Assembly (NCBI GenBank): GCA_014874295.1
Contig: JACWAL010000015.1
Span: 1 to 35,949 of the forward strand
Source of the DNA: Microcaldota archaeon
GTDB taxonomy: Archaea; Micrarchaeota; Micrarchaeia; Micrarchaeales; Micrarchaeaceae
Reading direction: 5' to 3'
DNA length: 35,949 nucleotides
The notes beneath the pieces are model-generated. The model searched no databases. It saw only the letters and a program-made list of their open reading frames with translations, and had not been told where the DNA came from. Shown here piece after piece: positions 10,356 through 12,470 of this stretch. Position 1 is the first letter of the stretch, and each line of letters begins with the position of its first letter. The translations under genes were made by a program, and so were the position numbers.

Positions 10356-12116
10356 TTATCGATTATCGTATGTGCCGGGGCGGAGCTTTTCTACAAGGTA
10401 GCCTCCAATCAGCATCGTGTTCGCGCCCGTGTTCTCCAGGGTCCATATCGCATCTGACGGATCCATGGCTATAGGCTTGCCATGCTTGTTGAGGCTCGTG
10501 TTCAGCACAGCACCCACCCCGCTCCTTTTCTTGATGCCTGATATTAGCTCTCTATAGGGTGCATTCTCTGCCACGAGGATCTGCGGCCTTGTGGTGTGAT
10601 CCACATGGGATGCTGCAACAAGGTCCTCGTAGTGCTCTCTTGAGACGCTGTTTGCACTGGTCATGAATGGATTGGGCGAGAGGTAGTCTTCGAGTAGCCC
10701 CGCTGCGTCTTCCTCCAGGATCGTGCTCGCAAAGGGCTGGTAGTAGGGGCGCTTCTTTATCATAAGGTTTATCCTGTTTCTGACCTCTTGGTCGTTCGGC
10801 ATCGCGATTACACTCCTGTTGCCCAGGGCTCTTGGACCGTACTCCATGCGACCCTGAAACCAAAGTATTATCCTGTTGCTCTCAGCAACGAGTTCCGCCC
10901 CGAGCCTTGGGGGGTTCTTTACCTCCTCGTACCTTATCATTGATCCTGATCTCTTCGCCTTCTTGAGGACAGACTCTATCTGCGCGTCCGTGTAGGATGG
11001 CCCGAGATATAGGGTTTCCATCCTGTTTGGATCCATCCTGCCGTTCAGCTTGAAATCGACGTACGCTGCGGCCCCGACAGAGAGACCCCCATCGCCCATC
11101 TGCGGGAACACGAAGTAACCTTTTATTTCGGGCAGCCTCTCGAAAACCCTGTTGCCTATCACGTTCGAAAAGAATCCCCCAGCAGTTGCCACATTGTGGA
11201 TACCTGTCTCCCTTACCCACTGCCTTATCAGCTTCGTGACCTGCTCCTCTACATGCCTCTGCACCGCGTATGCAAAGGGTTCCCTATCGCACTTCGAGAG
11301 CATGTGATCGCGAAGGTACTCTGCGAGGAGAAGCTCGTTCCTGGTACCGTGTCTGGACACGAAGCGCCTGCTTGCAACATCGTACTCGCATATGTCCTTG
11401 AGCCCCTCTACGGCGTGCGGGTAGGAGTACGCTGCGAGGCTCATGAGCTTTCCTTCGTCCTCGCTGAATCTGAGGTCGCATGCCACGGTAGCTGCACCAT
11501 AGAGCAGAGAAAGGCTCGCGCTCGCCTTGAAGCTGGCTAGGCGATGCAGCTCCCCTTTGTCTCCGATGGACACCGTGCCGCTCAGCCCATCGCCTGCGCC
11601 ATCAAGTGTTATGACCAGAGCCTCCTTGAAGCCAGAGGTATAGTAAGCGGATGCTGCATGCGCCAGATGGTGCTCTACGACGTAAATCTTGCTGCCTGAA
11701 AGGCTCCTTGATACCTGCGCGAGGCGCCTTCTCGCGACACTGCTGCTTATCGTGGTACCCACTGCCTTCCAGAGGAACTTTGGGTTCTGGTTCTGTGTAA
11801 GCTTGTAGATGAAATTGGAGAGGTGCATGCTCGCCCTCTGCGGCTTCGGCAGCTCCCTCCTCCAAATCTTCCTCCTCGTCTCACCGTGAGCCGGGAAGAG
11901 CCTTGAGACAAGGGCGTTGCCACCAATCCAACCAAGAGCGACGGCTTCTACCTGCGCATCCGTACTGCCGCATACATATCTCACGGAATGGTACGGGAAG
12001 CCGACTTCGTTCTTCCTCTTCGTGAAGCGCTCCTCGCTCACCGCAGAGAGTACCCTCCCTGAGGCGAGCAGCGCTGCACCTGCATCATGAGAATCAGTTA
12101 TCCCGAGCACCGCCAT
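10356..12116 (-). CDS. NodU/CmcH-family carbamoyltransferase
   Basis: MAVLGITDSHDAGAALL, VVEHHLAHAASAYYTSGF, LVITLDGAGDG, GGFFSNVIGNR, FQGRMEYGPRALGNRSV, SLNKHGKPIAMDPSDA. Confidence 0.93.
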   Translation of the reverse strand: MAVLGITDSHDAGAALLASGRVLSAVSEERFTKRKNEVGFPYHSVRYVCGSTDAQVEAVALGWIGGNALVSRLFPAHGETRRKIWRRELPKPQRASMHLSNFIYKLTQNQNPKFLWKAVGTTISSSVARRRLAQVSRSLSGSKIYVVEHHLAHAASAYYTSGFKEALVITLDGAGDGLSGTVSIGDKGELHRLASFKASASLSLLYGAATVACDLRFSEDEGKLMSLAAYSYPHAVEGLKDICEYDVASRRFVSRHGTRNELLLAEYLRDHMLSKCDREPFAYAVQRHVEEQVTKLIRQWVRETGIHNVATAGGFFSNVIGNRVFERLPEIKGYFVFPQMGDGGLSVGAAAYVDFKLNGRMDPNRMETLYLGPSYTDAQIESVLKKAKRSGSMIRYEEVKNPPRLGAELVAESNRIILWFQGRMEYGPRALGNRSVIAMPNDQEVRNRINLMIKKRPYYQPFASTILEEDAAGLLEDYLSPNPFMTSANSVSREHYEDLVAASHVDHTTRPQILVAENAPYRELISGIKKRSGVGAVLNTSLNKHGKPIAMDPSDAIWTLENTGANTMLIGGYLVEKLRPGTYDNR

Positions 12117-12247
12117 CCCAATACACCAATGCACAGTTCTACTTCCTGCAGCTTGTTAGGCTTCTGTGACTACCTCTATGTGTTAATCTTAGTTTTAATA
12201 TTCTGCTATTTATGCGTGGGCCTTGGCGCGGTAAGCCTTGTAATATG

Positions 12248-12359
12248 CGCCAGGGCTGGGAGTTTCAGCGCGAGGCTTTTGAACCCAGAAGGCCGTGAGG
12301 CCATGCGCTCGCTGGAGTATATTCCAGGCGCACGCGATACCGGTTTCCGCCACCCTGGC
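12248..12359 (-). tRNA. tRNA-Ser(GGA) with two putative introns (12310-12321 at 37/38; 12262-12277 in T-loop)
   Basis: Minus strand: GCCAGGG TG GCGGAAACCGGTATCGC G TGCGC CTGGAA[TATACTCCAGCG]A GCGCA TGGCCTCACGGCCTT CTGGG TTCAAA[AGCCTCGCGCTGAAAC]T CCCAG CCCTGGC G. Removing both gives an 84-nt class II cloverleaf with perfect acceptor, anticodon, variable and T stems. Confidence 0.88.
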
Positions 12360-12470
12360 ACGGTATAGGATTGCAGTCTCAACATTAAAATGCTTGCGGT
12401 CATTCGTGCCGACCTCGCATGGGGTTCCTATTGTGCGGCCATATGATGTGCGGTGGCAAGGGGCAGCGGC

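Follow-up and report, generated by a model that had tools for sequence, protein, structure and literature searches.

The tRNA-Ser(GGA) gene on the minus strand at 12248..12359 of the window (the whole stretch of DNA analysed, 35,949 nt) is, judging from its sequence and those of its relatives, very probably functional and apparently single-copy, with both of its introns predicted to be spliced out by an epsilon2 EndA and its exons to be joined by RtcB. It measures 112 nt with introns and 84 nt when spliced, includes the discriminator G73 and does not encode the CCA.

Structure and surroundings of the gene

Read from the minus strand, the acceptor arm pairs as GCCAGGG/CCCTGGC and the long variable arm as GGCC-TCAC-GGCC, the anticodon stem TGCGC/GCGCA encloses a loop of 19 nt, and the T-stem CTGGG/CCCAG encloses one of 23 nt. 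Arms, stems and loop sizes are all present where the initial annotation had placed them, and its coordinates for the two introns are likewise correct. Exon 1 (12322..12359, on the minus strand like all parts of the gene) comprises the 5' acceptor strand, the D-arm and the anticodon stem and loop through position 37 (CTGGAA, anticodon GGA). It is followed at 37/38 by intron 1 (12310..12321; 12 nt, TATACTCCAGCG), which forms a bulge-helix-loop (BHL) with the helix CTGG/CCAG. Exon 2 (12278..12309) carries position 38, the 3' anticodon-stem strand, the long variable arm, the 5' T-stem strand and the T-loop through position 59 (TTCAAA). Intron 2 (12262..12277; 16 nt, AGCCTCGCGCTGAAAC) interrupts the T-loop at 59/60 with a central helix TTCA/TGAA and an inner helix GC/GC, and exon 3 (12248..12261) supplies T60, the 3' strands of T-stem and acceptor, and G73. 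When both introns are cut out, the canonical loops CTGGAAA and TTCAAAT result. The parts of the gene follow each other 5' to 3'; its 3' half does not lie upstream of its 5' half, the arrangement that marks permuted tRNAs.

A TATA-like box, TTTTAAT, is located at 12384..12390 on the minus strand, i.e., at -31..-25 relative to the gene, and the upstream regions of 68 orthologues display an A+T peak of 0.84-0.94 at -31..-26. We interpret this box as the probable promoter of tRNA-Ser(GGA). An S13-like ribosomal protein ORF lies downstream of the tRNA in 14 of the family-1 loci examined, and the S13 gene of the window was confirmed by Pfam. There, tRNA-Ser(GGA) and S13 are separated by a carbamoyltransferase gene (10356-12134, minus strand, PF02543/PF16861); in many relatives the S13 gene follows the tRNA directly.

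Detection and copy number

That standard annotation may miss the gene had been anticipated, and it does: in a scan of the window, ARAGORN and Rfam (at the gathering score) both reported only a tRNA-Asn at about 33.3 kb. ARAGORN does not handle the T-loop introns of Ser(GGA) genes. Allowed to place introns in the orthologues, it misassigned a few (to Ala or Pro) or called them in part only, and with introns disallowed it called none of the 66 unspliced family-1 genes. The spliced models were called tRNA-Ser(gga) in 65 of 66 cases in family 1 and in 39 of 39 in family 2 (104/105), and the single non-call is likely L096, from which our parser cut 7 nt and whose real T-loop intron is longer.

The initial annotation had named two findings that would speak against a two-intron gene, a second tRNA-Ser(GGA) and a lack of exon conservation in relatives. 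Both outcomes favour the gene: the exons are conserved, and Rfam search and BLAST found no second Ser(GGA) in the organism's own genome (0.82 Mb, 42 contigs, 94.5% complete). The Rfam search placed 41 tRNAs above the cut-off, with Ser(GGA) not among them; the genome does contain the other serine tRNAs, Ser(GCU), Ser(UGA) and Ser(CGA). The same search did not reveal tRNAs for Trp, Cys and Pro(GGG), so that either the assembly or the search must be incomplete for tRNAs. One ARAGORN "Ser-gga" call (C18:17317, L017) has an anticodon loop beginning CTGATA and was rejected as a second copy; we read it as an intron-bearing Ile(GAU).

Orthologues and conservation of the intron motifs

BLAST with Ser(GGA) gave matches in 73 of the 85 genomes of the family, and an exon-only query in 158 of the 164 genomes of the order, some of the weak matches being other serine tRNAs. 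The exact pattern from D-arm to anticodon occurs in at least 120 stretches of public species genomes; among the 80 matches listed, nearly all bear the title Ca. Micrarchaeota, Micrarchaeum or Micrarchaeaceae, and a few Marsarchaeota, Mancarchaeum or uncultured archaeon. Together with the ARMAN-2-like EndA described below, this places the host in Micrarchaeota and not in Thermoproteales. We parsed 105 orthologues, 66 from family 1 and 39 from family 2; they share conserved exons but differ in their introns. The anticodon intron is found in all 105 (10-24 nt), the T-loop intron in 56 of the 66 in family 1 (L096 included) and 25 of the 39 in family 2 (13-43 nt). In the remaining 24 (10 in family 1, 14 in family 2) the T-loop intron is precisely absent and the loop reads TTCAAAT. 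Five further loci lie outside the parsed set (L053, L097, L098, L289 and L112, which ends at a contig end), and in the first four a T-loop insert is visible by eye. In a relative, Ca. Micrarchaeum sp. A_DKE, Ser(GGA) likewise has the two introns together. Orthologues, covariation, precise absence of the T-loop intron and the splicing endonuclease described below argue for the two-intron reading and for the exact splice sites proposed in the initial annotation.

That annotation had fitted a bulge-helix-bulge (BHB) to each intron. At the T-loop this interpretation holds, as two bulges of 3 nt flank a helix of 4 bp at the exon-intron borders and a short inner helix, GC/GC, is present. Across the 47 distinct introns of family 1, exon TTCA pairs with intron positions -6 to -3 in every one of 188 cells; shuffled introns reach 73 on average (none of 2000 attains 188), and six other registers at most 96 of 188. 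In family 2 the central helix pairs in 91 of 92 cells. All 94 cells of the inner helix, in which intron +2,+3 face -7,-8, are paired, compared with at most 43 in slid versions, and the changes in this helix are compensatory: the first pair occurs as G-C, T-A or A-T, the second as C-G, A-T or T-A. Covariation in relatives had been proposed as a check by the initial annotation. A compensatory change between exon and intron is seen in a class-level relative (L307), in which exon base 57 is G and its intron partner C (TTCG/CGAG). Folded on its own at minimum energy, the precursor does not show the TTCA/TGAA helix, a result to which we give little weight against the covariation.

At the anticodon the BHB interpretation did not stand. 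In the window gene no inner helix is formed, and AAT and ATACT make up a single loop of 8 nt, so that the motif is a BHL rather than a full BHB; such relaxed BHL forms are also accepted among archaeal BHB-type introns. Pairing in the predicted register amounts to 208 of 248 cells (shuffles: mean 105, 0 of 2000 reaching 208), with C32 facing G in 62 of 62 and G34 facing C or U in 61 of 62. The pair of U33 is mismatched in more than half of the relatives, which makes the anticodon motif a weak one.

Splicing machinery and proposed processing

The initial annotation had predicted a splicing endonuclease of broad specificity, and an epsilon2 EndA was subsequently found in the organism's own genome. 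It is a single ORF of 405 aa with two PF01974 stretches and corresponds to the epsilon2 type, i.e., one gene of about 390 aa with alphaN-alpha-betaC units. Residues 17-405 align to the ARMAN-2 EndA (4fz2_A, E 7.6e-166), and the alignment shows the same residues at the catalytic positions Y236, H251 and K282 and at lysine K161 of the loop (residue numbers from PMC6379350, in which K161 is the RNA-binding lysine of an ARMAN-specific loop). The epsilon2 endonuclease is reported to be of broad specificity and to cut both BHB and BHL (PMC6379350, PMC12397907). An RtcB ligase gene is likewise present (C24:1312-2616). A similar three-unit EndA occurs in 280 of 301 genomes of the phylum and in nearly all sampled families, with much weaker matches in one family, f6. 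The two Ser(GGA) genes seen in f6 keep the T-loop intron and have no anticodon intron.

The precursor would be transcribed from the TATA-type promoter, and the epsilon2-type endonuclease would cut after the second bulge base at four sites, its substrates being the relaxed BHL in the anticodon arm and the BHB in the T-arm. RtcB would then ligate the three exons into a tRNA of 84 nt with the loops CTGGAAA and TTCAAAT, and the mature tRNA-Ser(GGA), once charged, would read the serine codons UCU and UCC.

Alternatively, the anticodon intron alone might be removed and the T-loop insert retained, giving a mature tRNA with an enlarged T-loop, which the presence of the insert in about three quarters of the parsed orthologues could be taken to suggest. 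We regard this as very unlikely, given the full BHB geometry with its compensatory changes, the variation in length from 13 to 43 nt and the disappearance of the insert without trace in 24 relatives. The elbow between D-loop and T-loop is likewise an established part of tRNA structure, which a T-loop of 23 nt is expected to disrupt. That the locus is a decayed pseudogene or a chance tRNA-like sequence, with UCC and UCU read by another tRNA, would explain why ARAGORN and Rfam do not report it and why both unspliced loops are far too long, but can practically be dismissed, as every arm pairs, two families preserve the exons but let the introns drift, searches of the genome detected no other Ser(GGA) and the TATA-like box upstream is conserved. 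Splicing of both introns is accordingly the reading we retain; T-loop introns of this type have been described elsewhere in archaea (PMC6379350).

Possible origin and loss of the T-loop intron

Outside the order, Ser(GGA) genes with T-loop inserts were found in L307 and L309 (family f6, both lacking the anticodon intron), L311 (f15), L312 (f14), L313 (f3), L314 (f19) and L317 (f9), and genes without such an insert in L308 and L310 (f15) and L316 (f4). In the set of two families, genes with the T-stem TAGGG lack the T-loop intron in 16 cases and carry it in 4, and those with other T-stems lack it in 8 and carry it in 77 (Fisher p 8e-10, uncorrected for kinship). TAGGG-TTCAAAT-CCCTA is also the T-arm of the sister genes Ser(UGA/CGA) in the intronless genomes checked. 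The organism's own genome combines TAGGG-TTCGAAT in the sister serine tRNAs with CTGGG in the intron-bearing Ser(GGA). We infer from this pattern that gene conversion from a sister serine tRNA may account for the precise loss of the T-loop intron. The wider scenario, which we put forward tentatively as quite possible, is that the 59/60 intron of Ser(GGA) is ancient in Micrarchaeota, was inherited vertically in one isoacceptor and was repeatedly erased by conversion events that overwrote the 3' portion of Ser(GGA) with that of a sister serine tRNA.

Alternatively, the T-loop introns may have been gained separately, at a hot spot, in different families of Micrarchaeota, a question that leaves the splicing of the gene untouched. 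The common T-loop TTCAAAT provides an identical exon strand in many tRNAs, T-loop inserts occur as well in two other tRNAs of the organism's own genome, Leu(CAA) and Arg(CCU), and intron presence is mixed inside several genera. On the other hand, across most of family 1 and in part of family 2 the introns share isoacceptor and position and have similar ends, TTCAAA-(A/T)GC ... GCTGAA-TA-T, and the T-arm of intronless genes often agrees with that of a sister serine tRNA, an indication of loss. We consider separate gains rather unlikely. If an ancient 59/60 intron was indeed erased by conversion, this would show concretely how an archaeal tRNA gene can lose an intron with precision.

Introns in other tRNA genes of the genome

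Several other tRNA genes of this genome (G000) have apparent introns at unusual positions. The tRNA-Leu(CAA) (L037, C15:3578-3675, minus strand) has a T-loop of 20 nt (TTCAAAATCATTGAACAAAT) and thus a second T-loop intron of about 13 nt. In tRNA-Arg(CCU) (L041:201-310, C31, plus strand) the T-loop insert is about 36 nt long, with a central helix TTCA/TGGA and an inner helix of 7 bp, ATGCTTC/GAAGCGT, and the Rfam match ends at the T-loop. The tRNA-Val(UAC) (L040, C39:22080-22174, plus strand) has a seeming intron of 24 nt in the 5' anticodon-stem strand (CC-intron-AGC). The tRNA-Leu(UAA) (L305, C19:10168-10229, minus strand) does not reach the Rfam cut-off; an intron of about 17-18 nt in its D-loop forms a clean BHB (TCTG/CAGA, inner TGGC/GCCA). 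A piece resembling a tRNA 3' half (L306, C20:4731-4799, plus strand) combines an anticodon arm like that of Arg(GCG) with the end of the T-arm and the 3' acceptor strand of tRNA-Glu(UUC), and is possibly an integration scar or a split-tRNA half.

The gene L023 (C26:23978-24087, minus strand) is an isoleucine tRNA with the anticodon UAU. In most archaea AUA is read by a modified CAU anticodon. Similar introns at 37/38 are found in L023 Ile(UAU), L028 Thr(GGU), L029 Gly(UCC), L032 Thr(UGU) and L033 Arg(UCU), each with a hairpin near AAACTTC/GAAGTTT followed by a stretch near ATCAAGAA. These introns look as if they had been copied between unrelated tRNAs; a spread of introns among unrelated tRNAs has been reported for Thermoproteales (PMC4033280).

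Relation to known systems and implications

Multiple and non-canonical tRNA introns together with an epsilon2 endonuclease are known from ARMAN-1 and ARMAN-2 (Ca. Micrarchaeum acidiphilum; Fujishima et al. 2011, as cited in PMC4033280 and PMC6379350). As far as these citing papers describe them, they share with the organism studied here the phylum, a homologous epsilon2 EndA, several introns at several positions and both BHB and BHL motifs; the window gene comes from a different lineage of the phylum. Thermoproteales such as Pyrobaculum and Thermofilum likewise have two or three BHB introns per gene at non-canonical positions and similar introns common to different tRNAs (PMC3218864, PMC4033280), but they belong to another phylum, and their endonuclease is (alpha-beta)2 instead of epsilon2. 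The permuted tRNAs of Thermofilum pendens and of the red alga Cyanidioschyzon merolae (PMC3218864) have their junction at the same bond, 59/60; by contrast, their halves are reversed, whereas Ser(GGA) has the normal order and a plain T-loop intron. Since multiple ARMAN-1/2 tRNA introns and the epsilon2 enzyme are published and 59/60 is a known junction, the introns of Ser(GGA) are of an already known kind.

The literature searched, which left out Fujishima et al. 2011, contained no paper on the T-loop intron of Ser(GGA) or on its spread in Micrarchaeota. Possibly new are the recurrence of this intron across several families of the class and the finding that genes lacking it mostly share their T-arm with a sister serine tRNA, a trace to be expected from gene conversion.

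An apparently single-copy tRNA that is missed by both ARAGORN and the Rfam tRNA model implies that the tRNA sets of Micrarchaeota may be understated. In the orthologues a single BHB/BHL substrate pair is represented by more than 100 natural variants, among them clean alleles that carry or lack the T-loop intron, and the structure of the enzyme has been solved (4FZ2). Two questions thereby become directly testable: how broad a range of substrates the epsilon2 endonuclease accepts, and by which route tRNA introns are lost.
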